In this document: piece after piece, positions 11,665 through 58,615 of the stretch
Position numbering within the stretch: the stretch's first letter is position 1
Layout of the letters: each line of letters starts with the position of its first letter
Source of the DNA: a virus
Strand: one strand, 5' to 3'
IMG/VR virus record: IMGVR_UViG_3300021963_000072
Span: 27,364-91,363 of that record
DNA: 64,000 bases
Made by a program: the position numbers and the translations under genes
The notes under the pieces: model-generated
Told to the model about the DNA's origin: nothing
The model's input: the letters and a program-made list of their open reading frames with translations, nothing else
Database searches by the model: none

Positions 11665-12054
11665 CTAAGATTTATTGAATATCTTTTCAAGTAGTATTTT
11701 AGCATCGTTTATATTTGTTATGTATCCCATTTCTCTAGTTACATCATTTCTATTTGATTTTGAATTATTAAATTTTCTAACAAAAGATTGATGTATTTTA
11801 ATCATTTCAATATCATCGGTCTCAGATATTGTAATAATTTTTTCCATGTTTAAAATAAACATGTCTTCTTTTGTTGTTTTTATCCATGGTTCTATTTTAT
11901 ATCCATTTGATCCATTTCTGGATTTCATTTCAGTTATAGTAATTGGATTTGTAACTAATAAATTTATTCCAGTTTTTTCTTCACAAGGAACAACTCTGGC
12001 AAATATTTCCTCACCACTAATTAATTTTATAGACGCATAAAAATCATCTTCCAT
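11665..12054 (-). CDS. LSm-like conserved phage protein (paralogue C)
   Basis: A 129-residue protein. FYASIKLISGEEIFARVV, LLVTNPITITE, IEPWIKTTKED and MEKIITISE follow the same order of motifs as the proteins at 1259-1645 and 4656-4949 (hydrophobic-K-L, SGE, NP, PW, then a strand), with an added C-terminal helical tail (HQSFVRKF, DAKILLEKIF). It is the most divergent of the three. It overlaps the UvsW stop by 11 nt, lies downstream of UvsW and upstream of gp55, and is probably co-transcribed with both. Confidence 0.78.
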   Translation of the reverse strand: MEDDFYASIKLISGEEIFARVVPCEEKTGINLLVTNPITITEMKSRNGSNGYKIEPWIKTTKEDMFILNMEKIITISETDDIEMIKIHQSFVRKFNNSKSNRNDVTREMGYITNINDAKILLEKIFNKS

Positions 12055-21217: not shown

Positions 21218-23905
21218 TTAAACAGTTCCGGCAACTTCACCGAAGCTTACTCCAGTTCTTGTCGCAACGAAGGTCAAGGTTACATAATTAATTGACTTAG
21301 TTGGCTTGAGGTAAATGTCAGCTCTAAATTCATTATTATCAATGAGGTCTGGAGTGTTGTTTGATTCATCGCAAACAATTAAATAACCATAGAGTCCTCT
21401 CTTAGCTTGAATTTCGGCAAGGAAAGGATCAACGAGAGATACAAAGTTTGCTCTAGTAATGTTATCGTTGATTTCAAAGAGTTGTGCATCTGCAAGTTTT
21501 TGCAGTGATTGCTCAACATAGAGGAACAATCTTCTAACATTAATTCTATCGAATGCAGAAGCATATCCAAGAGCAGTTTTATCTCCGAAGAGAAGAGTTC
21601 CAAGTCCAGGTTGAGTGATGATTGGATTTACTCTTGCTGTGTACAGAGAATCTCTTTGTGCCTTATTTGGATTGTATGCAAGTTTAACTGCGTTGTTCAG
21701 AATTCCTCTTTGCTGTCCAGCAGGTGAATACCATGGATATGCTTCAAGAGATGTTCTAACCATCAGACCAGCAACGTCTCCGTTACATGGAATGTATCTG
21801 AATGCATTGTTGAATCTATCATACATGTACTTGTATCCACTATCAAATACTGCATAAGAAGAGGATGCAAGAGTGCTGAAGAACTCTACAACGTTATCCG
21901 TAATGTCATCAGTGCTAACGAATCCGAGTCCATCACCAAGAACATCTGTTCTGTGTGGTGAGATGCAAGCAATGCAATCTCCTCTGTCTTCGGCAATAGC
22001 AATCAGGTTTTGTGCTTTTGCTTGTGACTCTTCCTTATCTTCAAGTCCTGGTCCCATCAGCAAGAAGTCGATTGCAATTTCGTCCTTATCAGCAAAGTAA
22101 TCATATGCATTAAGAACTTGTCCCAATGTTGCCTTCAAACTTCCTGTTGTGCTTGTTGATGCCAAACTTACAGTTGCAGCATTATTTACCGCAACAATTT
22201 GAGCTTGTACTACTGGATCAGCAGATGATGGAGGAAGTTCTGGAGTATAATCCTTACCCCCAGTTAACTTATAAAGTTTTGGTCCAACGACTGCAAAAGT
22301 TCTTTCTTTTCCTTCTTGGAACCAAAGTCCATCTGCAGCTGGAACTGGAATCCAGGTGTAAGTTCCATCAGCATTTACTACAAATCCTGAAGCATAAGTT
22401 ACTTCATTATTTGAAATATCTGATGGGTTTGCACCAGCAAAGATATACTCAGAGTAAACTGCAAGATAATCTTTGTAGAATAATCTTTGTGGGGGATTTA
22501 TTGCAGAAATTGCATCAAGTGACTTGGAAAGTGATGTGTGCTTCTCAAGAAGATTTCCCTTAATTCCACTTACTGTTCCGAGATCATCGAAAATTGCAAT
22601 GTGGAGGGCATCATTTCTTCCCTTTCTATCAGCAACCCACTGGTTGGTTGTTGGCTTCTGTGCGATTGACTTCCAAGAAACTGAACCAGTTTCAAGAGCA
22701 ATAAATTGCTCATTATACCAGTCCTTAATATCACTTCCTTGATCCAATGTTACCGTAGCAACTCCAACACCAGAGGTGTTGCGAACTACAATTTGGTTTC
22801 CTGGTTTAAATGATGCGTGTCTTGATCTGTTCTTATATTCGATTGGTGTCTCTGCTCCATCCGAATCAACTTTTGATGTAATTTTAACGTCAATTGTACC
22901 AAGAGTTGCATCTTTACCAGTAACGATTGCTTTCAGATAACCGTTTTCGGTAAAGAATCCACCGCCCTGATCATTTCTTCCAGTTCTTCTAACTGGTCTT
23001 CTAACTTGATCGATTGATACAGTAACACCAAATCCAACTTGAGCAGCAGTTGCAGCAACTCCACCTACATTGAGAATTTGGTCTGCCTTGTCGTCAATTA
23101 AAGCAATAGTTAAATTATTAGACCATGTTCCTGGATTCTTTCCAGCAAACATATACGGGATTACATCACCTTCTGTTCCAGCATAGTCATTGAGATTTTT
23201 AATCTTTAAATCTGGATCAGCAACGACGGAATCTGCAGCATCTTGAATTCCATCTACAATAATTCTGATTGGATTATCATTTGCAGTATTTCCTAAAATA
23301 CCATCATTAATGTAGATAATGTCATTAGATTCGTATCCTGAACCTCCATTAATTACACTTAAAGAAACAATTTCTCCAGTGGTTCCAATTCCAACAGAAA
23401 TAATTGCACCAGATCCTGGAGATGAAGTTCCATCACTAGAAGAAACGGTAAAACCGTATCCTACTGCAGCAGTTGATGCTAACAGTGATGCAGCGTTTAA
23501 TTGTGATAATTGATAAACACCTTCTGTTCTTGCACTGTCTGCAACATATTCTGTAGGACCACTTCCATATGCCGCAGTAATGGAGGTGAGTTCATCTTCT
23601 TGAGCGGTTCTTGTGCTGGAGTTTACAATTGTCTCTCCATCTGTTCTCACAACTTTAACTATTCCACCGTATGAGAGGAATGAGGATGCGGTCATCCAAT
23701 ACTCATACTGACCATCAGTACTTTGGGGTTTTCCAAAAACCCGAATTAACTCTTCTTCTGTTTCAATAGTAACAGGATCTTCTACCGGACCTTTTACAAA
23801 TGGTCCAGCAATAGCTCCGATGTTATCTACGATGTTGTCGATCCTTCCTACCGTTAAATCAACTTCCCTGATTAATACACCAGGAGATAATTGAGGAGTC
23901 GCCAT
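21218..23905 (-). CDS. 18: contractile tail sheath gp18
   Basis: An 895-residue sheath protein (T4: 659). The start MATPQLSPGVLIREVDLTVG and the C-terminal half (LLFGDKTALGYASAFDRINVRRLF, FEINDNITRANFVSLV) carry the polymerising sheath core. The extra length is mainly an inserted region about residues 110-250 that contains a glycine-rich GSGAIISVGIG...GGSGYESNDIIYIN module, the same type of module as in gp14, gp8 and the giant proteins. An AGGAG Shine-Dalgarno and a late-type box at 23939 precede it. Confidence 0.97.
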   Translation of the reverse strand: MATPQLSPGVLIREVDLTVGRIDNIVDNIGAIAGPFVKGPVEDPVTIETEEELIRVFGKPQSTDGQYEYWMTASSFLSYGGIVKVVRTDGETIVNSSTRTAQEDELTSITAAYGSGPTEYVADSARTEGVYQLSQLNAASLLASTAAVGYGFTVSSSDGTSSPGSGAIISVGIGTTGEIVSLSVINGGSGYESNDIIYINDGILGNTANDNPIRIIVDGIQDAADSVVADPDLKIKNLNDYAGTEGDVIPYMFAGKNPGTWSNNLTIALIDDKADQILNVGGVAATAAQVGFGVTVSIDQVRRPVRRTGRNDQGGGFFTENGYLKAIVTGKDATLGTIDVKITSKVDSDGAETPIEYKNRSRHASFKPGNQIVVRNTSGVGVATVTLDQGSDIKDWYNEQFIALETGSVSWKSIAQKPTTNQWVADRKGRNDALHIAIFDDLGTVSGIKGNLLEKHTSLSKSLDAISAINPPQRLFYKDYLAVYSEYIFAGANPSDISNNEVTYASGFVVNADGTYTWIPVPAADGLWFQEGKERTFAVVGPKLYKLTGGKDYTPELPPSSADPVVQAQIVAVNNAATVSLASTSTTGSLKATLGQVLNAYDYFADKDEIAIDFLLMGPGLEDKEESQAKAQNLIAIAEDRGDCIACISPHRTDVLGDGLGFVSTDDITDNVVEFFSTLASSSYAVFDSGYKYMYDRFNNAFRYIPCNGDVAGLMVRTSLEAYPWYSPAGQQRGILNNAVKLAYNPNKAQRDSLYTARVNPIITQPGLGTLLFGDKTALGYASAFDRINVRRLFLYVEQSLQKLADAQLFEINDNITRANFVSLVDPFLAEIQAKRGLYGYLIVCDESNNTPDLIDNNEFRADIYLKPTKSINYVTLTFVATRTGVSFGEVAGTV

Positions 23906-41032: not shown

Positions 41033-41040
41033 TATTTATT
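41033..41040 (-). promoter_or_regulatory. late-type -10 box AATAAATA before gp8
   Basis: AATAAATA (minus) at 41040-41033, about 19 nt before the gp8 ATG and overlapping the stop of the upstream gene. Confidence 0.5.
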
Positions 41041-44000
41041 AATTATTTTGAGTGTATCCTAATGCCTTTAATTTATTTTCTCTAATAACTGTTGCGGATG
41101 TTGAAAGACCTAAAATTCCATTCTTATAATAATTAAATTGCTTTAGTTGAGTTCTCTTTAAATCACTTATCCTTCCCCATGAAAAATCACCAATATATTG
41201 TCCATATATATAACCCGAATTTCCACCAATTGTTCCTATATTTCCTCCACTAGCAATGTCTAGACCGTTATATGAAGCAACAGGAACAACAACCCTTACA
41301 ATTTCTGTTCTTCCGAGACCAACTGATAATCCTGGAACTTCAGTAATTGCTACTCCAACAGATTCTACATTATATATTCCATCCAAATAAGAACTACCAA
41401 CTGAAATTACACTACTATCATTGACATCTAGAGAAGATACTCCAAAGACAGAATTTCCAATATTACTATTACTTATTTTAAAGTAATATCCTGGAAGTAT
41501 TCCACTTTTATCAATTGGAATTCCATATGCAGATTCTCTAAGATATGAATTTTCTGGAATATATAATTCAAATACAAAATTTGTATTAAATCCAACTGTT
41601 GATGTTGTTCCTATTCCAGTTACCCATCCAAAATCCCCCTCATAATTGACTTGATTAATTTTTTCATATGCTATTGTTGGAGGACCAACATGAACTTTGG
41701 TAATATCAGTTGTTGTATATCCATATCCAGGATTATTTAATTGAACTGAAGAAATGGATCCAAATGAATCAATAGAGCATGTTATTTCTGCTCGATTATT
41801 TGTTGTAGTTCCAATTCCTGTAAATGATGGGTATGATACTGTTATATCAGGTGGATCGGAGTATCCGAGTCCTTTATCTATTATATTTACTGAAGAGATT
41901 CTTAAATTATTTCCTATAGAAATAGATACCTCGGCTTGTCTTATGGCATCATTTGAAACAATAACAATATTTCTTTGGGAATTTTTTAAAATTCCAATTG
42001 GTTCATATTCGTCGTCACTATCAAAAAATATTTTTACATTCTCCACAAATATTGATTCGGTACTTCCTATTCCAACACTTTTAATAATTTGTGTTTTGGG
42101 ATATATTTCTGGCTCGTAAATTTCTCTCGATTTTCCTACAACATTTCCGTCAATAATTTTATCATACAATTGCTTACACCATGTAACAGGTCTTTGTAAG
42201 TTTGGATCGTTAGTAACACCAGTGTTTTGATAGACATTTGTTTCAACAATATCAGTGGCGATTATATCTGTCACTGTTCTTGATGTTTGCTGCAAAGAAA
42301 GTAAATTTGAATTTAATGTTATATTGTCTCCTATTTTTATAGTTTCAAGTATATCAACATTTCTTGTGTCAACTTCCTTAGTTCCGTAATAAAAAAGAAT
42401 TACACATTTATCTCCTTGCTTTGGAGGTTCTAAAAATGTTATAATACTTCCTCCACTAAAAGTATATGATTGATTCGGTACTTGGTAAATATCATTTATG
42501 AATACAATTAAATTATATTCAAGTTCTAAAGTGGATCCCGGTCTTGCTCGTAATGTTGTTTGTAGTCCTCCCAACTTTAATGGAAACTCAACTCTCTTCC
42601 CATTAAATAATCTATCGAAACTATCAAAGACAACTAATTCACCAAAAACATAACCAGAGAATGAATCGGTAAATGTTTGGTCAATTGTTACCTGGAATTC
42701 ATCAAAGGAAGAATTTCTCTCAAGATCAAAAACTGACACAACTCCAGATGTACCTATTCCCGTAGTAGTAAATGAATCATATTGAGAACCAACAACCAAT
42801 GATGTTCCGTTTGAAGGTAACTTAACGGAAGTTCCAAAATTATCATTTAAATTTTTAGCATAAATTCCAGTTTGTATGCCGATGTTTACATAATCTGATC
42901 CAAGATAATTCTCAGTAATACGTTCATATAGATAAACAATTCCACTTGAATCTTCAACTCCTGGATATTCATCTTCCTTTGTTCCAATGGCTATTAATTT
43001 ACCATCACTTGTCATAGAAATTGAAGATCCAAAAGCATCGTCAACATTATTTGCATACAGACCATTAAGTATTTGTATGATATAGTACTGATTTTCAATT
43101 TTTTCATAAACATATACAGTTCCGGATCTTGCCCCACCTATACCACTATTATCATTAACTGCGCCAATAGCCAATATTTTCCCATCGTCATTAATTTCAA
43201 CAGAATATCCAAATAATGTCGTTTGAACTATATTATTTGGATTTGGTCCTGTTATTATCCCAACTTGAGTCCAATTTGATGATATATTTTGATATACGTA
43301 CACTACTCCCTGAGATTCATCATTTGGTGCCCCACATATCAAAAATTCACCATTAGAACTCAATGCAATTGAACTACCAAAGTTATCTCCACTGTTATAA
43401 GCATAAAGTCCGGTTATAATTCCTACAGTATTAAACCCAATTGTTGGACTATTTTGTCTTTCGTAAACATATACGACTCCACTAGATGTACTTGCATTTA
43501 AACTTGGATCTTCATCTCCAATAGCAGAAACTGCTATTATATTTCCATCATAACTTGTATCAACCTGCCATCCAAATGTATCAAATGCCCCAAATGCATA
43601 AGCACCTGTAATAATTCCCACATTTGTGAATGTAGGTCCTGAGGATCTATCAAAAACATATACAAGACCACTTGATCCTGGGTTGCCAGGATACTCATCA
43701 TATGGAGCTCCGACAATAATTTTTGTTCCATCCCCACTTATAGCAACAGAATATCCAAAATTATCATCAGCATTTGACGCATACAATCCAGTTAAAATTC
43801 CAACTTGACTATATCCAATTCCAACTTTGTCAAATAGATAAACTAATCCAGATGAAGATCCTGAGTTTGGATCCTCATCATATGGTGAACCAACAACTAT
43901 AAAATTCCCATCATCACTTGTCGATACTGAAAAACCAAATCGATCATTAAATGTCGATAATGAACCAGTAAATATTCCTACTTCGTTGGTAATATTTTTA

Positions 44001-47000
44001 ACAACCAAAGAACTAAATGTTGGTATGCCAGTTACTCCACCAGTTTCTATAGTTAATATCTCACCTTGTCCATACGAACTTCCAAGAGATTTTAATTCAA
44101 ATTGAGAAATTGTCCCATTATTTGAAACTACTAAATCACATTTAGCATAGCTTCCAATACCTGGAGATGATTCGTTACTATAAATTAAATCGAGATCAAA
44201 ATAAGAATTTGGACTATCTACTATAAGATCTAAAGAATCATACCTACGAACAATTACTTCAGATAGTGCTGGAGATATATTTTGAATTGTAATTGGTTGA
44301 TTTATAGTAACTTCATTAGTTTTATAATCAATATCAGTTATTTTAACGTCAGTAATTGCAGCTCCAACAACAGTGATATAATCTGTATAACTATTAATTC
44401 CTGCTATTGATCCCAGTTGAATAGACGTATCGGTAGATTCAATCTCTTTTTGCAAATTGGTATTTAAAATTGTTATATAATTTGTAAATCCAGCTCCAAC
44501 ATTAGTAATTTCTGGTTCCAATAAATGTCCATTTGAAATGGTAGATATTCCAATATGAACTGGAGTTTTTCCTCTTGTTATATTTTTAATAGTTCCACCA
44601 TTAACATAAGTATGTTCAAAAATAGTTTCCCCTACGTATATTGTAAATGTATTCTCATGAGTATATAATACTTCAAATTGATACCCCAAGTTACCTGATG
44701 GAAATTCTAATGTAGCTAAGACAAGAGATCCCGATGAACTTAAAATACTAAACGATGGTGGTGGAACAGAAAGTTCATCAACATTAATTGTAAATGCGTT
44801 TACATTAGATCCAAAGGAAATTGGTGTTGACAACACAGTAAATACCTTGTCATCTAAAAATGTAGAAGTATTTTTAAATAAAACAAACCCATTTGTTGTT
44901 AATGTATTATTAACATCACCATCTGTGGTTATTGTTGTAATTCCCGTAGAATATCTGACTTGATTTGATCCAGATGGAACAAAAGTATGTGGAGAAGTAT
45001 TTGTTCCGGCAGACCCAACATTAACTACAATTGTTGTCGCAGTGGTTGATGCTATTCCTACAGTAGTATTATATGCTGCATCACCCGATCTTGGATAAAA
45101 TGTTGTTGTACTATTTCCATCAAGAGTGCAAGTAAATCCAAGTGATTCTGGCTCAATTAAAATTTTTCCTCCTATTGGCAATGAGTGAGATCCAATAGTT
45201 AAAGTGGAAATTCCAGATACTGGATCATATGTTGCGTTAGTGACAGTAAATAATTTTCTATTTACTGTTATCGATGATATTCCTATACTTTTATTAAATG
45301 TTGGAGAAGGATCACCAGAAGTTCCACCACTATTACACTTATAAACTAACCCTCTTATTTCAACAATTTCTCCTGGTGAAGTGAAAAATTGATCAGAGGT
45401 TATTGTAACAATTCCAGTAGTATGAGTATATGTTGCATTCTCTACTGGATATTCTTTTAATACGTTTACATATATATTTGCAATTCCTACTACTGGATTC
45501 TTGACTTCTACATATACAATATCATTAACATTGGTCTGATCTATACCAGATTGGAATCTCTTAATAACCGCGGATGTGTTGTTAACATATCCATTAGTAG
45601 TTGGAGTATCTAATATGAATAAGTTATTAATTTCATCAACATCAATTATTTCAATATTTTTAGCTACTGTTCCTATGCTTAAATAATATGGAGCTGATGT
45701 AGAAGTTGTATCAATTCCAGAAACACTGGCAACTTCAATTATATCTGTTGATATTCCAGAAGCACTAGTTATACTTGTAGATTTAACAAATACAAATCCA
45801 CTTGAATCATCGACTTCTATCCATGCATCAACTGGATTTGCTATTTGAACATAATATCCAGTTTCACCATATCCAACTGATGTTATTTGATTAAATCCAT
45901 TATTCTCTATTCTATTTCTTCCGATACTATTTTTAACCAATAATCGACAATCCGATTGTGAATACAAATAATTTAATTTGTTCCTAATACCATTTATGTC
46001 TTTTAAATAAAATGTTCCGCCATTTGGACCAAATGATGGAGATGATATTTCCGTTTCAAACGTATAATCGTTTTCTGCTCTGTATCCGGATCCAGTATAA
46101 CCAATAAAAATTGATTCTATAGTCCCCCCATAAGACACTTTAGCAGTGCCTCCGGCAGCAACTAATGGTTGATATCCTAATCCTGGTTTGGTGCCAACAG
46201 AAACGATTATTCCACCTCTTGGAATTGATGCTGTATTAATATCTTCCGGATTTGAAGATGGGGAACCAGTAAATTTAATAGTAGTAATTCCAGCACTTTC
46301 AGATAATCCATAATCAATAAAATCCGGAGTTTGGAACACATTGTTAATTAAAACTAATGCATTTCCTGTAGAGAATCCTGCAATATTTTCACCTCTTTCC
46401 GTTAATACTGCTTGGGTAGATATTCCCGTGAACTGTTGAGATATATCATCCAATAAGAAATTATAATCATATGGACCAATAGAACTATCTTCAAATCCAG
46501 ATCTTAAAAATACCCTTGCATCAAATGTAGAAAAAGTTTCTAATCCAACGTAATCTCTATCTTCCGGATCCGTTCTTTCAAAATCTGTGGTTGGACTTTT
46601 TTCAAATGGGGGGACGGGGAAATATATGGTATTTTCAGAAATTTGATAATTGCCAGATAATTTTACAACGTCTGATCCAGATTGATGATCAGCTAATTTT
46701 GAGCCCAACATGGGTCTTCTGACAATAAAATTATTATTACCTGCAAATTTTACATAATTTATTCTCATTATTTCATTGTCAATTCTAATCAAATCTCCAC
46801 TAAAAAATGATGTAACACCAGTAACATTTATTAAATCTTCAGCTCCAGATAAATTATTAACTAATTGAGTTTTTATTGTACTATCAATAGTTGGCGATTG
46901 TACTACGTTATCAATAGTTACGAATGTTCTTGTATTTTGCTTTTCTCCTATAAATTTATGAAACGTTCCAAATCCTAATCTAGTTAAATCTAAAACATCA

Positions 47001-47374
47001 GGTATTCTTTTTAAAGCACCTTCTTTTGTGGCAGATAATTTGATAAATCTGTCGTTTAATTTTACGGCATAAACTGTTGAAGGTAAAACTGAAGAAATTC
47101 CAATATTTGGAATACTTGTAGATGCAATACCTATAGCATTATTACTACTTGTCAAAAATCCATCATATTCATAAGTCAATTCCTCACCAGTTCTAAAAAA
47201 ATGATTAGGTAAAAAAATTGTATTATTTGAAAGATCTACATCACTGTCCGAACTACCCAAAAAGAATTTCTCAAAAATAGGTTGGCTTCTATGTCTAAGC
47301 TCCGCACTTAGTTGAACGTCAAATCTTCTTCCTACATAATCTCCAGAACCGCTATTAATGATTATTTCTGCCAT
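41039..47374 (-). CDS. giant virion structural protein with FG-GAP beta-propeller (2111 aa)
   Basis: A 2111-residue baseplate/fibre protein. The N-terminus MAEIIINSGSGDYVGRRFDV, RSQPIFEKFFLGSSDSDVDL is conserved in cyanophages. Residues about 1138-1553 (42715-43960) hold seven FG-GAP-like repeats of the form D-x-F-G-x-S-V...S-x-D-G-x-x-I-x-V-G-x-P-x-D-E...S-G-x-V-Y-V-Y-x-R. Other modules: INVTGVTSFFSGDLIRID near 180, HSLPIGGKI near 730, GLGYSDPP/PGYGYTTTD near 1820-1900. The C-terminus KLKALGYTQNN is typical of gp6/gp7-neighbour proteins. It lies 13 nt after the 3742-residue gene. Confidence 0.85.
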   Translation of the reverse strand: MAEIIINSGSGDYVGRRFDVQLSAELRHRSQPIFEKFFLGSSDSDVDLSNNTIFLPNHFFRTGEELTYEYDGFLTSSNNAIGIASTSIPNIGISSVLPSTVYAVKLNDRFIKLSATKEGALKRIPDVLDLTRLGFGTFHKFIGEKQNTRTFVTIDNVVQSPTIDSTIKTQLVNNLSGAEDLINVTGVTSFFSGDLIRIDNEIMRINYVKFAGNNNFIVRRPMLGSKLADHQSGSDVVKLSGNYQISENTIYFPVPPFEKSPTTDFERTDPEDRDYVGLETFSTFDARVFLRSGFEDSSIGPYDYNFLLDDISQQFTGISTQAVLTERGENIAGFSTGNALVLINNVFQTPDFIDYGLSESAGITTIKFTGSPSSNPEDINTASIPRGGIIVSVGTKPGLGYQPLVAAGGTAKVSYGGTIESIFIGYTGSGYRAENDYTFETEISSPSFGPNGGTFYLKDINGIRNKLNYLYSQSDCRLLVKNSIGRNRIENNGFNQITSVGYGETGYYVQIANPVDAWIEVDDSSGFVFVKSTSITSASGISTDIIEVASVSGIDTTSTSAPYYLSIGTVAKNIEIIDVDEINNLFILDTPTTNGYVNNTSAVIKRFQSGIDQTNVNDIVYVEVKNPVVGIANIYVNVLKEYPVENATYTHTTGIVTITSDQFFTSPGEIVEIRGLVYKCNSGGTSGDPSPTFNKSIGISSITVNRKLFTVTNATYDPVSGISTLTIGSHSLPIGGKILIEPESLGFTCTLDGNSTTTFYPRSGDAAYNTTVGIASTTATTIVVNVGSAGTNTSPHTFVPSGSNQVRYSTGITTITTDGDVNNTLTTNGFVLFKNTSTFLDDKVFTVLSTPISFGSNVNAFTINVDELSVPPPSFSILSSSGSLVLATLEFPSGNLGYQFEVLYTHENTFTIYVGETIFEHTYVNGGTIKNITRGKTPVHIGISTISNGHLLEPEITNVGAGFTNYITILNTNLQKEIESTDTSIQLGSIAGINSYTDYITVVGAAITDVKITDIDYKTNEVTINQPITIQNISPALSEVIVRRYDSLDLIVDSPNSYFDLDLIYSNESSPGIGSYAKCDLVVSNNGTISQFELKSLGSSYGQGEILTIETGGVTGIPTFSSLVVKNITNEVGIFTGSLSTFNDRFGFSVSTSDDGNFIVVGSPYDEDPNSGSSSGLVYLFDKVGIGYSQVGILTGLYASNADDNFGYSVAISGDGTKIIVGAPYDEYPGNPGSSGLVYVFDRSSGPTFTNVGIITGAYAFGAFDTFGWQVDTSYDGNIIAVSAIGDEDPSLNASTSSGVVYVYERQNSPTIGFNTVGIITGLYAYNSGDNFGSSIALSSNGEFLICGAPNDESQGVVYVYQNISSNWTQVGIITGPNPNNIVQTTLFGYSVEINDDGKILAIGAVNDNSGIGGARSGTVYVYEKIENQYYIIQILNGLYANNVDDAFGSSISMTSDGKLIAIGTKEDEYPGVEDSSGIVYLYERITENYLGSDYVNIGIQTGIYAKNLNDNFGTSVKLPSNGTSLVVGSQYDSFTTTGIGTSGVVSVFDLERNSSFDEFQVTIDQTFTDSFSGYVFGELVVFDSFDRLFNGKRVEFPLKLGGLQTTLRARPGSTLELEYNLIVFINDIYQVPNQSYTFSGGSIITFLEPPKQGDKCVILFYYGTKEVDTRNVDILETIKIGDNITLNSNLLSLQQTSRTVTDIIATDIVETNVYQNTGVTNDPNLQRPVTWCKQLYDKIIDGNVVGKSREIYEPEIYPKTQIIKSVGIGSTESIFVENVKIFFDSDDEYEPIGILKNSQRNIVIVSNDAIRQAEVSISIGNNLRISSVNIIDKGLGYSDPPDITVSYPSFTGIGTTTNNRAEITCSIDSFGSISSVQLNNPGYGYTTTDITKVHVGPPTIAYEKINQVNYEGDFGWVTGIGTTSTVGFNTNFVFELYIPENSYLRESAYGIPIDKSGILPGYYFKISNSNIGNSVFGVSSLDVNDSSVISVGSSYLDGIYNVESVGVAITEVPGLSVGLGRTEIVRVVVPVASYNGLDIASGGNIGTIGGNSGYIYGQYIGDFSWGRISDLKRTQLKQFNYYKNGILGLSTSATVIRENKLKALGYTQNN

Positions 47375-47386
47375 TTTACTTTTCGA

Positions 47387-50300
47387 TTAGAATCGTCCAA
47401 TGTTTACTTGAATACCTTGTATTTTAAACTGTGTGAATGGTGATGGTTTAAATAGCAATTTAGTTAAAGATCCCTCTAACCTTGATGAAAAAGTTCCAAC
47501 CCCAACTGTACCAATTCCACTCGTTTCTGTGGGAGTGGGAACTACCAACTTTCCATATTCCGTAATATATGAATTGGCTTGATTATTAATTAATTGAATT
47601 TCTTGTGATACATATTGTTTATTTATTTGTCTTTCAGTAAAACTACTTGAAAAACCTAACATTTCAGTTTCTGCGTTGGCGCTATCATTAATAAACAATG
47701 CAAATGGATTGTTTCCTTCAAATTTCCACAAATTGGCACCTCCAGCAAAATTGTTCGCAGTTCCAGAGAGCTCTGCAGCATTTCCAAAAAATGTAAGATT
47801 AACTCCAAATCCAGATGTTCCAGATCTATACGCACTATCTGGGGTTTCTATTGAAGTGCCATTTAAATCATGCTGTTCACCAAGAACCCAAGAACTTCCA
47901 TTCCAATATGAAACTCTAACTGTTGTATTTGGATATGGGGCGATTAAAGCATAATCCGACAAAGTTTCTCCATAAGAATAAGTATTTGAAATATATTCTA
48001 TTGGAATACCTTGTTTCATATCGGATCCAGATCCATCATCAGTTTCAACAGATATGATTGTCTGCTGATTGAAAGCAGAAACTGCGGTATAATCTGAAAC
48101 TGACAATGGTTGATCATAAGCTGTGCGAATTCTATCAACTCCAAGTCCAGTAAAATATTTGGTCATTGTCGAATTATTAATAGAAATTGCTGGACTTAAA
48201 AGACCTTTATCTAAAATAGGGGATGAATCTGCAGAATCATAATAATATGTTGTCATAATAACTGGACTTGTTGATGTAAAAAATACCCAATCATCATAAG
48301 TTGTTGTTGTAAGCACACCAGATTTTCCTGGTTGAATTGTTACTGTTGTGACACCTATTCCAGTAGTGTTTCCAATTCCCATAGTATTACCAAATCCTGT
48401 CTGGTTTTGATCATACAAAGTAACAATAACATTATCATTATTTTGATTTGGAAGAGCAAAAATATTAAAATAAGACACTCCAGTTTCTGTTGGTATTCCA
48501 ACTGAACTTCTATCTGCAATATAATGTCCAAATGTGGTTGATGCATAAGAAACTGGCGATATTCTATGCTGATTTCCTGGTTCAATAAAATGAATAGGTT
48601 TGTTTGCAAAATATCTACTTCCCGATGTTATAGAAATAGTCCCTCTCTGTGGGTTAGATCCAGTGGTTAAAAGAACATTTTCAAATCCATCATTTGTGAC
48701 TTCAATTAGTTTAGTATTTGGATATATTGCCGAATATGTTGCAGTTCCATTTTCAAACGCATACCAATCAGAAATTCCATGATTTTGTGGTCCGGCATCG
48801 TATGCAAGAACATTATCAGTTTTTACCCCAACAACGGTAAGGAATACATATGCACATTTATATTGGGTACTATAATTCAATATTTCTGTGAATGATGGTA
48901 TAGTTGTTCCTATTCCTACCTGTTCAAATGATATCACTTCTCCGGTGTCGAACCCTAAATTATCGGTCAATGAATAATCTGTATTTGCAATGGAAACCGT
49001 AACAGCTTTTATATTATAATCATCTTCCAAAGTATTATATGGTGTCATTACTATATCATAAGTTGTTCCGCCTATTCCCATTCGTGCTGAGTATGAAGCT
49101 ATACCAGAAACAGATCTATCTGGAAAATTATCTTGAGTTTTAGTTATGAGTTCACCATATTCCAAAAGTCTTATGTCATCAGAATCATCATGAATTATTG
49201 AAAGTTCATTTATTTCATAGTATGAGGTAGTTGCAGATCCAACCAAAATGAATATCTTACTTGCTCTATATGTGGAAGCTATTCCCACAACAGCAGTTCC
49301 AATTCCGGGAAGAACTCCAGAAGTTAAAATTCCAGTTTGATTATAAATTCTACCAACGTCTCCAAGAGCAACATCTTCAAGTTCTTCGGGATCATCACTC
49401 ATCTCAAATGAAACATAATCTACTATATAATTGTTAAAGTCAAATTTTGTTGGGAAAAATAAAACATTTTGATTTGAACCTATAATTTCAGATTCAAAAG
49501 ATCCAAGATCAGATGCAGTTTCTAGCCTTCCATACTGACCACAAAAAACATCAGTATCATCATGTACTGTGGTAAGTATTAACATTTGTTTTTCATTAAA
49601 GAATCTTCTATCTTGAATATAGAAGAAATGTTTTCTTGCTCTAATTTTTGTAGATGGATTTCTTGATACGATTGAATAAGTAGTTTCTCTTGGAAGTGGG
49701 TTGAAATTTTTACTAATATCATCTATACTTAAAACTCTATTATCGATAGATTCAATATAATCTTGAAGTATTCTTGAATTAAAAATTACCTGATTTGATT
49801 TTAAAGTATTGTTTGAAAGGAATGATAACTCTCTTGCCAAATCAAAATCATAAGTGCAGTTTACACTTGCAGAAGATATTAAATCGGTAATAGGAGTAAC
49901 TGCCCCATCATTTTGAGATGTGGAGATTCCTGAGAAATCTTTTTGTCTTGAAATAACTTCTAAATTTGAAAATCTTTTAAATCCTGCGGTATGATTTAAT
50001 GTTGCTACCGGATCATCCCATTTATTAATAGGTACTTCCGACTTCAATGAGTATGAAAAATATTGATAGTAATCACTATCATGAATTCTTTGAAGATCGA
50101 GATTAAGTTTTCCAGTATCTTTAGTCCACCCTTTATTAACAACTGATGTAGAATCTATATTGTAAAATGCATCAAAATTTATTTTTTTAAGTATTATCGC
50201 TTTCGTTTTGCTCGATTCTCCAATAATTATATCACCAACATTAAAATCTTCAAATATTCCAACTTTTAAATAATCATTTGCAGAATCCCATTGATCCACA

Positions 50301-53300
50301 ATTCCACGACCAGATAAAATATCACTTTCATTTCTAATAAATTCGTCTTCGGAAAAATTATTTTTTAATAATGTAATAGTGTATTTTGGAAAATATTTAA
50401 CTGGAACTATTCTTGCAGCTTCAGATAAGAAGTCATCAACTTTATATGAATCACTGTCTTCGGGATTTTCTACATCTGGATCCAAATATCCTTTGAAATC
50501 TAAAGTAACGGATGCACCAGCACCACCAATATTTGGATCTCTTCTAATAACTTTATAAAATGCAAATCCATTAGATTGAGAATTGAATCCTTTAGATTCC
50601 AATCCTTGAGATTCTGCTATAGTTACAACATCCTCTATGAAAACAAAATCGCCTAACTGGAAAGGAAAATCATATATTGTACTATACTCAGTTTTTAAAA
50701 ATACTTGTATTGTTGGTAAATTACTAAATTGAATGCTATCTGGGAAATTATATTCACTATCATCAGCATCTTCACTAAGTAAGGCATTATCTATTCCATT
50801 AACAACTTCTTGTGGAACAGCATTATTATTTACATCAAGAATTATAATATCTTGCTGATTCAATAGTAATGGTATTGCATTGCTATTATTAATTGGAACT
50901 AATCTTGGCTCTATACTTGAAAGATTTTTTGTATTTTGATCTATTGTTACAAAGTTATCGCCAAGATTATATCTTAAAACAACGTCATCAACAATTTTTC
51001 CTGTTTTTTTATCTATAACAACAATATTTGGTGCAGTTAAATAATTAATTCCAACACTGTCAATTCTAATTCTATCGATAGAATATAAAGGTTCAACTTT
51101 AAATATTGTAGGAAGTTTTGCAATTGGTCTTATAGATAAATCAGAAGAATAGTTAAAACCTATATCTGTTATATCAACACTTTTAATCTTACCTACACTA
51201 GTACTATTTCCACCCAAAATTGCACCATTTCCTAAGGTACTGTTTATAATTGTTTCTTTTGGTAACGTATAGAAATATCTTCCTCTATTATTTAAAGATA
51301 TTTTTGAAATTGGACCAAAGGCATGTATTGAATTTGTTGAATATTCAATGGTACAATTTTCATTAGTATAAGAATCTTGTTCTGGATCTAGTGGTATTTG
51401 ATATTTAAATACTGCGTCAGAAAATGGAGGTTCATTTGGATTATTATCAATAATACCAAATACTTTATAAACTCCATTATACTTACTTTCTATGCAAGTT
51501 ATTCTATTATTCTTTGTTTGTTCAGAATCCACTAATATTTCCAATTTTGACGATAAATTATTTTCAAACAATATTGGGGTTAATTTATAAAATAAATTAT
51601 TTGGAGCATCATCCGAAAGATATAATTTCAATCTAGCATTATTACTAACTCCAATTGAACCTGTTTTTATTACATCAAAATTCTTTGTGTTTCCACTTGA
51701 AAAATACTTATAGTTAAAGTTTGCATCAGAGTAAATATCAAAAGTAAATGAACTTGTTCTAACTAAACTATTTCCAGAAGCTATCGACAATGATGGATGA
51801 CTGAGATCAAAATTTATTGTTTGATTTTTAAATGTTAAAATTTGAGGATTTATTTGATATATTTTTCCGGGTTGAGGATTGGATAAATTTATATAATTTG
51901 GAAATTCTAATCTTGTTTCATATAGAGTATCGCAAAGAGAAATCGTATTTCTATCTATTGCAACTACATAATATACTTGATTATCAATCAAACCAGAAAT
52001 AGCTGGAACATTGTCTCCATTTTGGTTAATAGATCTGTATAAGATTTTATCTCCGGTTGACAATTTGTGTGCTGGTATTACTATACTATCTGTTACAGCA
52101 TCAACATTGACACTTAAAAATGTCCTTGGATTTAATACCATTAATCTATTTTCATCATTATATTCAACTATGACATTTAATTCATTTTTTGGTTTTAATT
52201 TAATATCAATAAAATCATTTTCAAGCAATCCATGTGTAGATCCAACAGAAACAGTTACTATATTTTGAGATACTATTGCATTAAAAACATTTGTTTTGAG
52301 AGTTTTTAAAGAATTTTCTGTGTTATTAATTGCCGGGTTAAAGTACAATAAAGGATCCGAATTGTCTAAAAGGTTTACTACATTTCCAGTAGTTCCAAAT
52401 CCAACTCTAGTAGTAGATAATCCTATTAAATCTTTGCTTATCTTTACGGAATAAACAATACTATCCTGAAGAAGTATGTTTGCAGGATTTCCAACTTTGT
52501 TATATGCTAATAATCCTTTAAAATATAAAGGTTGATTAGTTTCAAAGTTATGATTTGGGAGATATATTGATCTTATTGGTATAGTAATTGATGATATACC
52601 ACTGCCAGTATAAACTACACTGGTTATTCCTGAAGAAATATTAGTACCAAACCCTACAGAATTTTTAGAATTGAAATAATATTCATAATTTGTTCTAGAA
52701 TTGTAACTTGTTTTTATTCCTAAATCAGATTCAAATTTTCTTGGGAGTTCTTGTAATATTGTTCCACTATAAACAGTAGATAAACCACTATTTGCATTTA
52801 CCGACCTTTCAATTCTAATTATAGATTTTTGTGTATCTATATTTAATATTCTTATAGTTTCATAACCATTTTCTTCATCAGTAAATTTATAGATATCGTT
52901 TTCTCTAACATCTGGGTATTTAATATTTCCAGATACTTGAATATATGTTGAAAGTCCAGTTTGAGCAACAGTATTTAAAGTACTAGTTAATACTAAATTG
53001 TTAGATTTTACTTTAATTTTTTGGAACGATATTCTTTCTACTGGAGTAGTGATAGAAACAACGTCACCATCACTGTAGTTATGTGGAGTACTGGTAAATC
53101 CAATAAATCCGGATTTATTGGAATTTTTTTCAAATTCAACATTTGAAAAAGATGACCTTGCAACGCCAATGTTAGTGACTTCCTTTCCTTTGATATGTGA
53201 AATAGATGCAGTTGCATCTTGCCCAATAACATCAGAATTCTTAAACAATATTGTATCGTTTACTTTGTAATCCTCACCACCTACAACAATATCAACAAAT

Positions 53301-56300
53301 TCAATTTCACCGTAATTTGCATATTTGATTTTACTAATCGGCTCTTTTATTTTATTTGATTGATTCAGATATCTATAAGATGAATCGATATTGTTTAAAA
53401 GATATGGACTTGTATTTTTATACCAAGATGTTTTATTAATATCTACAGTATCTTGATTGATTTTTTGATCAAAGTTAAACTCTATAGGTAAAGATTCATA
53501 AAAATCTCCAATCACATAAGGAAACTGTGGTATAAATGTTTGAGCAGGTTCTTTTCTGATTGATGGATTTACAGTGCAAAAATATGCATACACTCCATTT
53601 GGATATTCTGGTGTTTTACAATACCTTCCATTATGAATGTCCAGATATTCACTACCTTCACTTGTAAAATCTATATACTCATAATCTTCTACAAAAAATC
53701 CAAGTGGAAACAACAGCTCTGATGGTCCGTCTGTTCTTTGAGAAATTAATTTATAAGAAGATTGCATTGGAACAATAGTTCCTGATAATCCATTTTTATA
53801 TCCATAAGGACCATAAATTGGATTTCCGTCATATGCCCATCCAACTATTGGAGAGTGTTTTGCCTCGTTTCCTACTCTGTCTGATTCTATGTCAGGATAA
53901 TATAAAGAATTTTCTTCAGAATGGAATAAAAGTCGTAGTGTATTTGAAAGGTAGATATGCGTATACTGAAGATCATCCGTTCCAAGATCAGAAAAAACAA
54001 ATCCCTCATCATTTGTTAATCTTGAATTTAATTCATATCGTTTTAATAGATTTATATTCCAAGATTTTATTTTTACCGATGTTCTAAGTCCTTCACCTCT
54101 ATCAATGATGTCAATTATTGTGCTTGATCTATCATATCCGTTACCTCCATATAAAACATTAATTCTTATCAATTTTCCATCTTCAATCTCCGGTACTAAA
54201 ACAGCTCCATTTCCAAATCCCCTAACAATTACATCTGGAGTACTGTAGTAATTTTTTCCCGAATTTAAAACCAATACTTCTTTGATGGATCCATCTGTAA
54301 TTAATGGTATTGCTTGGGCATTTATTCCCTTTACCACTTCAACTGATGGTTGTTTAACATAATTTACAATATCTGATGAACCATAATTATTTCCAGATTC
54401 GGAGATAAAAATAGAACTTATTTCACCTCTAAAAATTGGATTTACTTTTGCGTTTAAATCTTGACCCGCAGAGGTTGACACTCCAATAAATCCTTTTATT
54501 TCAACATTAATTGGCTCATAATTAAAATAATGAGTTCCAGATCCTTGACTTGTTATATTGACATATTGCTTTGTCAAAAAATAAAAATCATTAGTTTTAT
54601 CCGATCCAGTAAAAGTTTCAGATAGTTTAATATTATTGTTATCTATTTTAGTAACATAATATGAAGTATTCTCTTGTAACCCACCAATCAAAGAACCAGT
54701 ACTAAAATGAACTAGTAGTTCACCATCAGAATATCCATGATTGGGAATATTAATTATATTGGAGATTACATTTACATTTTCTGGTAAAGTAGATACTTTT
54801 CTATTTTTATATCCAGAACCGGGATTGACAATGGAGATATATCCTATTTTTGATTTATTTTTTGATGACTTTAAATAATGTCTACCAGATGAATATCCAT
54901 CAATACCTACTGTGTTAATTCCAGAAATAGCATCAGTTTTTGATTTATATAATTTAACTGATGAAGAATTTTCAACAGAGATGATATATCTACTTCCATT
55001 TTCAAGACCTGGAACTGAACTTGTTGAAGAACTGAAATATACAATTTCCTCATAATTTTCAAAATTATGATAAGTAGAAAATCCAATAATATTATTTTGT
55101 GTATCTAGTATTCCATTATTTGAAGATGCTGGAAATTCAATTTGATAAGAAAAACTTTCCATAACTGGTTCAGCTATGGCATCAAATCCATTGCCACCAG
55201 TTATGTAAATTTGCGGTTTCCCGATATAATTAAATCCTGGATAGATTATATCCATTCGTTCCAGTGATCCAGTTACGGAAGGAAATGCTACACAACCTAC
55301 ACCAAGGTCCCCAATGGTTACAGATTTATCACCTACTCTTACCTCAGATCCTCCTACACCACCAACAGAAAGTTGAGTTCCTCCTACACCACCAACAGTA
55401 GCAACTAATCCATTAATTCTTAAAACAGATCCACCAATTTGATTAATATAAAGATTTTTTTCTCCAAGATTAAGAGTTTTTCCTTCTACAATTATCAATT
55501 CTCCACCTTGACCATCGTATGTTATAACATCTCCTCCAACAGCACCAAATTTAATAGGTACTGAGTTTGAAAAATTAAATATTGGCGTTGATTTGTTGGC
55601 ATTATATCTTACTTGAGTGCCAGCAGTATCTAAAACATTTAATTCTGGAGGATTAATTACATCATATCCAAATCCAGGTGATGTAACTTCTATTGATTGA
55701 ATATCTCCAAAAAATATTGAACTTCTTGATTTATAATTTAATATCTCAACTCCATTTTTAAATATTCCAATTTTTCCATAATTAGTTTTAATTTTTTCTT
55801 GACCTTTAGTTGGACTTGATATTTTTTTAATTAGTTTTTTTGGCCCAATATCACTTGGTAAAAGATAGTTTGGACTATTTACATCTACATTACTATACTC
55901 AAAGAATTGTATAGTGCATCTACACTCCCTAAATTCTGGCACATTGAATGGGGGTATAAGATCTAAAGTTTCATACCTTTCATTTAATATTAATGATGTA
56001 CTTCTTGCAAGTTTAAATCCATAAAGATCTCCTTCTATTCTAAAATCTTTTATAAAATAAATTCCATCGGGAATTGGACTTTTATCATTTTCCAATGATC
56101 TAAAAATTATTTGATCTCCCGTGTAAAACCCATGCTTTAATGCATTATCAATTCCGTTATTACTTTCTCTAAAGCAAGTTATATAAGAGTAATCTATAGT
56201 CCCATCAGTAAATTGTTTGTCAGATAATGAGTTCACACTTCCATCGGAAGTTATTTTTCCAAACAAAAATAAACCAGAAATTGATCCATCTTTAATATCC

Positions 56301-58615
56301 AACTCTACGGGAATTCCAGTTTCATCAGTATATGATGGCAATGAAGAAGACATTATGTATAGATTATCTTCTTTATCTAAGTAGGTATTTTGAATGTTAC
56401 TTGAATAATTTTCAAGATTTGGTTTATTTAATAAATTGACTTTTGTTATTTGCTTATTTAAAATATAATTTTTGACTAAAATTGTTAACGAAATATCAGT
56501 AACAATATTTCCATTATCTTGAATAAATTGTACGTTTAATTTTTTATTTGATATTATTTTTGTAGCATAACATTTTAAATTTGGAGCTTCATCGAAATAA
56601 AAGAAATCGGATCTATGGAAATTATGCTGATCGTATAATTCTAATTCAAATATCCCACTTATACTATCTTTTAAAATAACATCTTTTATTCTATAAGAAA
56701 CTGGAATATTATATACCCAGTCGTTATCCTTTTTACGAGTAGATAATTTTCCTAAAGATTGTATTCTAATTTTATTTCCCTTTTCAAACAAATAGGTATC
56801 TTCATTTTGAATAAAATTCGATAAAACTCCCGTTATTCTAACTTTTATTTTTTTATCTAAATTTTTACTAGAAAATCCAAAAGCATAAGAATCATTATGA
56901 ACAATACTACCCTCAAAAATTTCATTGTTAATAACATCAGTAATTGAATCTAAAGTTTTGCACCCATAGAATTGAGTATTGGATTTTGATTCATAAGAAA
57001 TAGAAAATGTCAATGGACCACTTAAAGATTTTGTTGTTATTTCCAATATTCCCGAAGGAGGAAAACTAACAGTAGAATCGACATTTATTACGGTAGATCC
57101 GGGTTCAATTTTTTCAGTTACTATAGTTTTGGGGTGAATTGAAAATTGACTGAATAGTGTGCCTCTATAATTAATATCCCTTTCATATCCATCGTCAATA
57201 CTTATTACATAATAACTAGTATAATCTCTTTCTATTCTTTCAACAAACGATACAGTTCCCCTTGCAGCAGGTATAAAAGGTGTTTGCTCTTGATATAATG
57301 TTTGATTTTTTAATTCTTCAGGATTGCCTTCCAATACTTCCACAACCAAATTTCTCAAAACACTATAAGAAGCATTAGATGGAGAAATTAAAAAGTCACT
57401 TGGCCTAATAACTGAAACTTTCTTATCGTATAAGGCAGAAAACAAAATTTTAAATGATGTTTCAGTTCCTTTAGATGAATAAAAATCTTTTCCTTGCTTA
57501 ATGAACAATGATTCATTTAATTTGGGATCTAATTCTCTATTTTCAAATCCCGGAAGAATTTGATATTTTATCTTCTTTAAAAATTCTTTAAAGAAGATAG
57601 AATTTAGATTTAATACCTCAGTATCAATTGAATGAAACGTTGCAGAAGTTTTTTCAAACGTTAATTGATCTTCATTATCAACCAAAGAGGTGATGCCACT
57701 AAATCCCCTAACACAACCAAGAAGTTTTAATCCCTTTACATCATTACCTTTTATTTTAAGATCTATTGTATTTTTATCAATACTCTTATATAAAATTATT
57801 TCGTCATCAATTTTAAGCAGTCCATATGAAATCGGTAGTGATCTTCTATCGTTATTTTCAGAATAAATTATTATTTCATTGGAAACATCAGATATATTTT
57901 TATTAGATGAATTTCCTAAAACTACATGTGATATTTTTTTAATAAGTCCTTGATTTCTATCTCCATTAAATCTAATGCCCAAGTCAATAGAAATACCGAC
58001 ATCAAATCCCCTTCCAATAACTGTTAATATTATTTGATTTAAATCAGATGGATCATATAAATCTATTTTTTGACCAACTGGAATAAACAACTCATCTTTA
58101 TCAGATACAAAAATATCCGTATCATCTGTTTCATATTCAGTAACTGCTTCAGTAATAAAATCTTTGACTTTTAATGGATTATAATTTTTAAGTTTATATC
58201 TTTTTTCGGTATTTTTTAATTCAAATACAGTCCCATCTTCAGATATATTTGTTATTGTAAAATATTTTCCATCAATTTCAGAATCATTTGTATTATCAAT
58301 TAATACTACATCATCATTAATGTAGGTGTCATTTTCAACTGTGGTAATTTTTATATTACTAGTAATATTTTCTTTTATTATTTTTGTTATATTAATTTGT
58401 GGATTATATAAGTAATATAAATCATTTACTTGATTTAAAACATCTATTTTGATGTAGTTGCTTATATTTCTTAATATGTCAACGCTGCCAAAATTAATTT
58501 CTGTTGAATTATAGTATTCTTTTAAAAACTCACCAAGTAATGGAAATTCTACTCTAATAAATTCTGGAAGTTGGTATTCAACTATAGAACTTATTTTTAT
58601 TGTGGAGTTTTTCAT
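47387..58615 (-). CDS. giant gp7-like baseplate wedge/structural protein (3742 aa)
   Basis: A 3742-residue protein in the position of T4 gp7 (1032). The N-terminal about 450 residues recall the C-terminal part of T4 gp7: LPEFIRVEFPLLGEFLKEYY at 15-34 and FYSSKGTETSFKILFSALYD at about 375-395 (T4 gp7 has FYSTKG-EASYKFLF). It continues with many glycine/H-G-L modules, a VGG-rich segment at about 1018-1105, and a YHYH-like domain at about 1583-1685 (HSPIVGWAYDGNPIYGPYGY, HNGRYCKTPEYPNGVYAYFC). The last about 500 residues are Gly/Ser/Thr-rich beta structure. No frameshift or internal stop is seen across 11.2 kb. Role as wedge plus receptor-facing extension is inference. Confidence 0.85.
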   Translation of the reverse strand: MKNSTIKISSIVEYQLPEFIRVEFPLLGEFLKEYYNSTEINFGSVDILRNISNYIKIDVLNQVNDLYYLYNPQINITKIIKENITSNIKITTVENDTYINDDVVLIDNTNDSEIDGKYFTITNISEDGTVFELKNTEKRYKLKNYNPLKVKDFITEAVTEYETDDTDIFVSDKDELFIPVGQKIDLYDPSDLNQIILTVIGRGFDVGISIDLGIRFNGDRNQGLIKKISHVVLGNSSNKNISDVSNEIIIYSENNDRRSLPISYGLLKIDDEIILYKSIDKNTIDLKIKGNDVKGLKLLGCVRGFSGITSLVDNEDQLTFEKTSATFHSIDTEVLNLNSIFFKEFLKKIKYQILPGFENRELDPKLNESLFIKQGKDFYSSKGTETSFKILFSALYDKKVSVIRPSDFLISPSNASYSVLRNLVVEVLEGNPEELKNQTLYQEQTPFIPAARGTVSFVERIERDYTSYYVISIDDGYERDINYRGTLFSQFSIHPKTIVTEKIEPGSTVINVDSTVSFPPSGILEITTKSLSGPLTFSISYESKSNTQFYGCKTLDSITDVINNEIFEGSIVHNDSYAFGFSSKNLDKKIKVRITGVLSNFIQNEDTYLFEKGNKIRIQSLGKLSTRKKDNDWVYNIPVSYRIKDVILKDSISGIFELELYDQHNFHRSDFFYFDEAPNLKCYATKIISNKKLNVQFIQDNGNIVTDISLTILVKNYILNKQITKVNLLNKPNLENYSSNIQNTYLDKEDNLYIMSSSLPSYTDETGIPVELDIKDGSISGLFLFGKITSDGSVNSLSDKQFTDGTIDYSYITCFRESNNGIDNALKHGFYTGDQIIFRSLENDKSPIPDGIYFIKDFRIEGDLYGFKLARSTSLILNERYETLDLIPPFNVPEFRECRCTIQFFEYSNVDVNSPNYLLPSDIGPKKLIKKISSPTKGQEKIKTNYGKIGIFKNGVEILNYKSRSSIFFGDIQSIEVTSPGFGYDVINPPELNVLDTAGTQVRYNANKSTPIFNFSNSVPIKFGAVGGDVITYDGQGGELIIVEGKTLNLGEKNLYINQIGGSVLRINGLVATVGGVGGTQLSVGGVGGSEVRVGDKSVTIGDLGVGCVAFPSVTGSLERMDIIYPGFNYIGKPQIYITGGNGFDAIAEPVMESFSYQIEFPASSNNGILDTQNNIIGFSTYHNFENYEEIVYFSSSTSSVPGLENGSRYIISVENSSSVKLYKSKTDAISGINTVGIDGYSSGRHYLKSSKNKSKIGYISIVNPGSGYKNRKVSTLPENVNVISNIINIPNHGYSDGELLVHFSTGSLIGGLQENTSYYVTKIDNNNIKLSETFTGSDKTNDFYFLTKQYVNITSQGSGTHYFNYEPINVEIKGFIGVSTSAGQDLNAKVNPIFRGEISSIFISESGNNYGSSDIVNYVKQPSVEVVKGINAQAIPLITDGSIKEVLVLNSGKNYYSTPDVIVRGFGNGAVLVPEIEDGKLIRINVLYGGNGYDRSSTIIDIIDRGEGLRTSVKIKSWNINLLKRYELNSRLTNDEGFVFSDLGTDDLQYTHIYLSNTLRLLFHSEENSLYYPDIESDRVGNEAKHSPIVGWAYDGNPIYGPYGYKNGLSGTIVPMQSSYKLISQRTDGPSELLFPLGFFVEDYEYIDFTSEGSEYLDIHNGRYCKTPEYPNGVYAYFCTVNPSIRKEPAQTFIPQFPYVIGDFYESLPIEFNFDQKINQDTVDINKTSWYKNTSPYLLNNIDSSYRYLNQSNKIKEPISKIKYANYGEIEFVDIVVGGEDYKVNDTILFKNSDVIGQDATASISHIKGKEVTNIGVARSSFSNVEFEKNSNKSGFIGFTSTPHNYSDGDVVSITTPVERISFQKIKVKSNNLVLTSTLNTVAQTGLSTYIQVSGNIKYPDVRENDIYKFTDEENGYETIRILNIDTQKSIIRIERSVNANSGLSTVYSGTILQELPRKFESDLGIKTSYNSRTNYEYYFNSKNSVGFGTNISSGITSVVYTGSGISSITIPIRSIYLPNHNFETNQPLYFKGLLAYNKVGNPANILLQDSIVYSVKISKDLIGLSTTRVGFGTTGNVVNLLDNSDPLLYFNPAINNTENSLKTLKTNVFNAIVSQNIVTVSVGSTHGLLENDFIDIKLKPKNELNVIVEYNDENRLMVLNPRTFLSVNVDAVTDSIVIPAHKLSTGDKILYRSINQNGDNVPAISGLIDNQVYYVVAIDRNTISLCDTLYETRLEFPNYINLSNPQPGKIYQINPQILTFKNQTINFDLSHPSLSIASGNSLVRTSSFTFDIYSDANFNYKYFSSGNTKNFDVIKTGSIGVSNNARLKLYLSDDAPNNLFYKLTPILFENNLSSKLEILVDSEQTKNNRITCIESKYNGVYKVFGIIDNNPNEPPFSDAVFKYQIPLDPEQDSYTNENCTIEYSTNSIHAFGPISKISLNNRGRYFYTLPKETIINSTLGNGAILGGNSTSVGKIKSVDITDIGFNYSSDLSIRPIAKLPTIFKVEPLYSIDRIRIDSVGINYLTAPNIVVIDKKTGKIVDDVVLRYNLGDNFVTIDQNTKNLSSIEPRLVPINNSNAIPLLLNQQDIIILDVNNNAVPQEVVNGIDNALLSEDADDSEYNFPDSIQFSNLPTIQVFLKTEYSTIYDFPFQLGDFVFIEDVVTIAESQGLESKGFNSQSNGFAFYKVIRRDPNIGGAGASVTLDFKGYLDPDVENPEDSDSYKVDDFLSEAARIVPVKYFPKYTITLLKNNFSEDEFIRNESDILSGRGIVDQWDSANDYLKVGIFEDFNVGDIIIGESSKTKAIILKKINFDAFYNIDSTSVVNKGWTKDTGKLNLDLQRIHDSDYYQYFSYSLKSEVPINKWDDPVATLNHTAGFKRFSNLEVISRQKDFSGISTSQNDGAVTPITDLISSASVNCTYDFDLARELSFLSNNTLKSNQVIFNSRILQDYIESIDNRVLSIDDISKNFNPLPRETTYSIVSRNPSTKIRARKHFFYIQDRRFFNEKQMLILTTVHDDTDVFCGQYGRLETASDLGSFESEIIGSNQNVLFFPTKFDFNNYIVDYVSFEMSDDPEELEDVALGDVGRIYNQTGILTSGVLPGIGTAVVGIASTYRASKIFILVGSATTSYYEINELSIIHDDSDDIRLLEYGELITKTQDNFPDRSVSGIASYSARMGIGGTTYDIVMTPYNTLEDDYNIKAVTVSIANTDYSLTDNLGFDTGEVISFEQVGIGTTIPSFTEILNYSTQYKCAYVFLTVVGVKTDNVLAYDAGPQNHGISDWYAFENGTATYSAIYPNTKLIEVTNDGFENVLLTTGSNPQRGTISITSGSRYFANKPIHFIEPGNQHRISPVSYASTTFGHYIADRSSVGIPTETGVSYFNIFALPNQNNDNVIVTLYDQNQTGFGNTMGIGNTTGIGVTTVTIQPGKSGVLTTTTYDDWVFFTSTSPVIMTTYYYDSADSSPILDKGLLSPAISINNSTMTKYFTGLGVDRIRTAYDQPLSVSDYTAVSAFNQQTIISVETDDGSGSDMKQGIPIEYISNTYSYGETLSDYALIAPYPNTTVRVSYWNGSSWVLGEQHDLNGTSIETPDSAYRSGTSGFGVNLTFFGNAAELSGTANNFAGGANLWKFEGNNPFALFINDSANAETEMLGFSSSFTERQINKQYVSQEIQLINNQANSYITEYGKLVVPTPTETSGIGTVGVGTFSSRLEGSLTKLLFKPSPFTQFKIQGIQVNIGRF
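55349..55398. repeat. 20-bp direct repeat, period 30, in the VGG segment of the giant gene
   Basis: TCCTCCTACACCACCAACAG occurs exactly at 55349-55368 and 55379-55398, a 30-bp period that gives a 10-residue protein repeat with VGGVGG. Further VGG units flank it. Confidence 0.85.
57569..57599. repeat. perfect 13-bp-stem inverted repeat inside the giant gene
   Basis: TATCTTCTTTAAA (57569-57581), loop AATTC, TTTAAAGAAGATA (57587-57599). It lies within the gp7-like coding sequence and encodes a Phe/Lys-rich stretch. Confidence 0.8.

Follow-up and report, generated by a model that had tools for sequence, protein, structure and literature searches.

The 64,000-nucleotide stretch of viral DNA analysed here (the window) carries on its minus strand two adjacent open reading frames, ORFs A and B, separated by 12 nt. 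Judged from profile matches, co-linearity and gene order, they are a split cyanophage-type gp7, the initiator of the baseplate wedge, and the second of them bears a predicted beta-propeller.

47387..58615, minus strand: ORF A, 3742 aa, N-terminal part of the split gp7 (phrog_2885; co-linearity with Bellamy gp7; hhalign)
41039..47374, minus strand: ORF B, 2111 aa, C-terminal part of the split cyanophage-type gp7, bears the propeller (phrog_2885; identity to Bellamy and S-SM2)

Both ORFs matched phrog_2885, a baseplate wedge subunit (E 0 for ORF A and 1.9e-228 for ORF B). ORF A aligns co-linearly with Bellamy gp7 over the latter's first ~2950 residues, and ORF B shares 36–44% identity with the C-terminal part of the gp7 proteins of Bellamy and S-SM2. 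The neighbouring genes are gp25, gp6 and gp8, in the order gp25-gp6-gp7-gp8 found in cyanophages; together with the phrog_2885 matches, this bears out the preliminary description of the region, which had placed the propeller in a baseplate-region protein. The gp7 proteins of Bellamy, S-SM2 and S-SCSM1 are single ORFs of ~4070–4160 aa without a propeller, co-linear with the window proteins at 34–44% identity over long aligned blocks. S-SCSM2R gp7 is also one ORF, whereas that of the window is split. The split is common to five related phages (L012, L013, L092, L094 and L188) and is therefore no sequencing error of the window contig. With a terminase 72% identical to the Bellamy and S-SCSM1 enzymes, the window phage is by sequence a T4-like marine phage of the cyanophage type. 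No match to the psbA family (PF00124) was found in the 91-kb fragment, a record that may be incomplete.

Comparison of cyanophage gp7 with T4 gp7 by hhalign gave a single 34-residue match (probability 94), to T4 gp7 residues 725–758, and the matching segment lies in the ORF A region. The same method found no significant T4 gp7 counterpart for the propeller-bearing region of ORF B, and a profile search of the PDB with the gp7 block that follows the propeller returned no T4 gp7 match, only a weak depolymerase module. Placing the propeller region of ORF B on the T4 baseplate therefore failed.

ORF B residues ~432–1050 contain a second expansion, of ~560 aa relative to Bellamy gp7, with no Pfam match; a module within it (residues ~698–806) is common to S-SCSM2R and occurs in three copies in the giant gp7 of phage S-MbCM6. 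The tail sheath protein (21218–23905, 895 aa) has ~110–130 residues that are not covered in cyanophage relatives.

Repeats and predicted fold of the propeller

The propeller and its repeat units, the latter delimited by the strands of an AlphaFold2 model, are as follows.

42725..43984, minus strand: predicted seven-bladed FG-GAP_2 beta-propeller, ORF B residues 1131–1550, end approximate (PF14312, AlphaFold2, Foldseek)
43823..43984, minus strand: repeat unit 1, residues 1131–1184; its first strand is the inferred closing outer strand of the last blade
43646..43816, minus strand: repeat unit 2, residues 1187–1243
43454..43630, minus strand: repeat unit 3, residues 1249–1307
43283..43438, minus strand: repeat unit 4, residues 1313–1364
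43097..43276, minus strand: repeat unit 5, residues 1367–1426
42920..43090, minus strand: repeat unit 6, residues 1429–1485
42725..42892, minus strand: repeat unit 7, residues 1495–1550

Seven FG motifs occur in ORF B, at residues 1146, 1206, 1267, 1332, 1388, 1448 and 1513, and a regular expression for the repeat core matched the protein seven times but found nothing in 2000 shuffled versions of the propeller. A Pfam profile search matched PF14312 (FG-GAP_2) to seven stretches of ORF B (E 6.9e-36; 122.6 bits against a cut-off of 23 bits). The seven consecutive FG-GAP-like units first noticed from the sequence alone are thus confirmed. The span originally given for them, 42715–43960, starts at 43960 and so omits the N-terminal outer strand (residues 1131–1135). 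Membership of the classical FG-GAP family was rejected, as the older profile, PF01839, had no match anywhere in the record. Bacterial FG-GAP_2 relatives are spread over many phyla at ~25–40% identity; they have the same repeat sequence, seven repeats and a predicted integrin-alpha-like fold, whereas the present propeller is embedded in a phage baseplate protein.

AlphaFold2 modelling of ORF B residues 1124–1560 with five relatives gave a confident model (pLDDT 83.1, pTM 0.89) with 28 strands arranged as seven sets of four. When the model was compared with the PDB using Foldseek, integrin alpha chains came out on top (best E 2.7e-18, TM ~0.65 over ~450 aligned columns), and among predicted viral proteins it matched giant-virus FG-GAP proteins (TM 0.81). 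A sequence profile of the propellers gave a weak PDB match to integrin alpha-6 (E 1.4e-6). Integrin alpha propellers such as 7ceb and 5es4 likewise have seven blades, and identity in the top matches is 17–19%. Repeats and model together indicate that the propeller in ORF B has its full set of seven blades and is of the FG-GAP_2 / integrin-alpha type, the fold that had been anticipated from the sequence. Residues 1131–1135 would complete the last blade as its outer strand, which is how such rings usually close; we infer closure because the strand order and the near full-length superposition fit it.

The phage propeller differs from integrin alpha in lacking canonical calcium loops. The integrin loop D-x-[DN]-x-[DN]-G-x-x-D had no match, strict or relaxed, in six propellers. 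Every blade of the window propeller has [DN]-G, but a hydrophobic residue occupies loop position 9 in each of them, and just two have an acidic residue at position 1 (the D of unit 3 and the E of unit 5). The earlier suggestion that D-x-D/N-x-D-G-like loops may bind calcium is accordingly not supported by the sequence, and the propeller would function without the integrin calcium loops.

Phage endosialidases and some glycan-active enzymes also have propeller folds (PMC4901313), which would fit an enzymatic role, for example as a glycan-degrading domain that cleaves surface polysaccharide. We consider such a role improbable: integrins and WD40-type propellers head the structural matches, with no enzymes among the best, FG-GAP_2 is the sole family match of the propeller with no enzyme family above its own cut-off, and the residues kept across propellers are mostly repeat-structural.

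Insertion sites and further propellers

Comparison with gp7 orthologues defines two insertion sites in ORF B, of which the first is occupied by the propeller in the window.

44009..44257, minus strand: conserved gp7 block directly before site 1, ORF B residues 1040–1122; adjoins the next block in propeller-less orthologues
41042..42709, minus strand: conserved gp7 block directly after site 1, ORF B residues 1556–2111, recognised by identity to orthologues
41576..41608, minus strand: empty insertion site 2, ORF B residues 1923–1933 (TTSTVGFNTNF); occupied in L012, L188, L013 and L092

The block after site 1 is 37–52% identical to propeller-less orthologues and 60–90% identical to propeller-bearing relatives. 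The two flanks are separated by −1 to 2 residues in 75 of the 77 orthologue contigs (L014–L090), from a sample of the best 80 of 557 matches that consists of contigs and not independent isolates, and by 436–444 residues in the window, L001, L012 and L013. As to the remaining two contigs, L067 is truncated, and L063 gave a value of 753, its best upstream match lying elsewhere in the protein; L063 had no FG-GAP match. The same site-1 arrangement was found in L092 and L094, retrieved with propeller sequences, and in L188, from a later search. Exactly seven repeats are present at site 1 in all seven phages (the window, L001, L012, L013, L092, L094 and L188), and this constancy, seen also in each second propeller described below, is what a closed ring would demand. 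By sequence comparison and modelling, the propeller is one intact domain cleanly inserted into the C-terminal part of gp7.

In the model of a propeller-less orthologue, of moderate quality (pLDDT 72.8, pTM 0.51), the empty site 1 is a low-confidence coil between strands, with pLDDT <50 near the site, and site 2 lies near the tip of a long predicted beta-hairpin. A Foldseek search of the PDB with this empty-site model matched nothing. A closed propeller has adjoining chain ends, which probably explains why the insertion is tolerated: the domain would form a knob on a loop and leave the wedge unbroken.

L012, L013, L092 and L188 have a second seven-repeat array ~370 residues further on, at site 2, which is empty in the window, L001 and L094. 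In a tree of site-1 and site-2 propellers with 17 bacterial propellers (a small sample) and 3 from other phages, the two sets are sister clades (100/99), suggesting that the propeller was duplicated long ago and that loss followed. The Synechococcus phage S-MbCM6 encodes a 7023-aa ‘virion structural protein’ that aligns with the N-terminal, middle and C-terminal parts of gp7 and is thus also a gp7 orthologue with an FG-GAP array. Its array, of about seven repeats with the last ones degenerate, is located elsewhere in the protein and groups with that of S-TIM5, outside the site-1/site-2 clade and on a long branch; an independent capture is likely but not certain.

FG-GAP repeats were also seen in other phage proteins. 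Cyanophage S-TIM5 (L004) has a stand-alone 407-aa FG-GAP protein annotated as a virion structural protein (11785–13008). Sinorhizobium phage Phosso (L005) has a 3692-aa protein with 37 FG-GAP-like profile matches, of which many are weak, and more matches occur in the protein next to it. In the viral contig L191, a 1055-aa ORF has 14 FG-GAP-like repeats (2 × 7) and a nearby 800-aa ORF has six (positions 2737 and 6886).

Selection, variability and candidate roles

Between the two closest phages, the window and L001, the propeller evolves no faster than its flanks. Its dN/dS is ~0.10 (dN 0.050, dS 0.51), compared to 0.15 in the upstream block (0.075, 0.51) and 0.09 in the downstream block (0.060, 0.65). 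The propeller is under purifying selection and is therefore functional. The absence of a propeller from most gp7 orthologues would suit a neutral or recently captured passenger without function; this is very improbable in view of the low dN/dS and of the retention of all seven repeats, intact, in seven phages whose propellers are as little as 50% identical. In distant members of the group the propeller is ~50–55% identical to that of the window, the downstream block 62–70% and ORF A 52–55%.

With top and bottom labels assigned by analogy with integrins, the top loops vary more than the strands (26/175 versus 11/184, p 0.008). They do not vary more than the bottom turns (26/175 versus 7/61, p 0.67), so the putative ligand face has no excess variability and lacks the pattern expected of a diversifying receptor-binding face. 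A hypervariable binding face was rejected on this comparison, and the variability pattern does not single out a binding face.

From the model and by analogy, we consider it moderately probable that the propeller is an exposed auxiliary binding module for a glycan or protein ligand on the host surface. It most likely projects from the baseplate, where its long top-face loops (4-1 and 2-3) would touch the ligand and the domain would add avidity around the tail tip, beside dedicated tail fibres.

The propeller may instead have a structural role, in which it would dock onto or brace an adjacent wedge, a fibre or an accessory protein of the virion and would not contact the host; this is a real if lesser possibility. 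Such a role would fit gp7, a wedge scaffold protein, and beta-propellers are commonly platforms for protein interaction. The site-1 propeller is present in all seven known members of the clade, it is under purifying selection similar to that of the flanks, and the lack of excess variability on the top face points the same way. The divergence of the distant propellers, greater than that of the following gp7 block, argues against a structural role, as do the gain or loss of the second propeller among close relatives and the absence of any propeller from most orthologues.

A broader extension of the binding reading is that cyanophage-type gp7 serves as a display platform for integrin-like propellers, which would have been acquired on more than one occasion and then duplicated within the gene, giving related phages none, one or two per gp7 and hence a ring of 6 or 12 ligand-binding propellers at the tail tip. 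We regard this as speculative and somewhat unlikely. The ring sizes assume that, as in T4, each of six wedges holds one gp7.

Known baseplate propellers and significance of the gp7 forms

Neither the propeller fold nor the notion of a propeller on a baseplate is new. In the myovirus PhiKZ, gp131C (PDB 4GBF) forms a seven-bladed propeller at the baseplate periphery and is suspected to be a receptor-binding domain, although receptor binding is unconfirmed (PMC4901313). In this Pseudomonas phage, which is unrelated, the propeller is the C-terminal domain of a protein other than gp7. The receptor-binding protein Gp45 of Staphylococcus phage phi11 has a five-bladed propeller thought to bind GlcNAc on wall teichoic acid, and propellers in other phage baseplates are also thought to bind receptors (PMC4901313). 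Gp45 resembles the present case in that the propeller belongs to a baseplate-attached protein and its N-terminal strand closes the ring, but it has five blades, is trimeric and comes from a siphophage. By analogy with these proteins, host binding by the gp7 propeller is plausible.

The literature search found no account of an FG-GAP propeller in a phage baseplate, and on FG-GAP and cyanophages it found only work on extracellular vesicles. As far as that search shows, what is apparently new is an integrin-type propeller inside a wedge initiator of T4 type that occurs naturally without a propeller, with one or with two.

Host recognition by T4-like marine cyanophages is poorly known, and the size of cyanophage gp7, several times that of T4 gp7, is unexplained. 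The natural set of gp7 proteins with no, one or two propellers, together with the cultured phage S-MbCM6, makes the role of the extra mass directly testable. Proof of binding would add integrin-type propellers to the attachment modules known from phage baseplates, and a display-platform gp7, if true, would represent a modular host-attachment system distinct from tail fibres.
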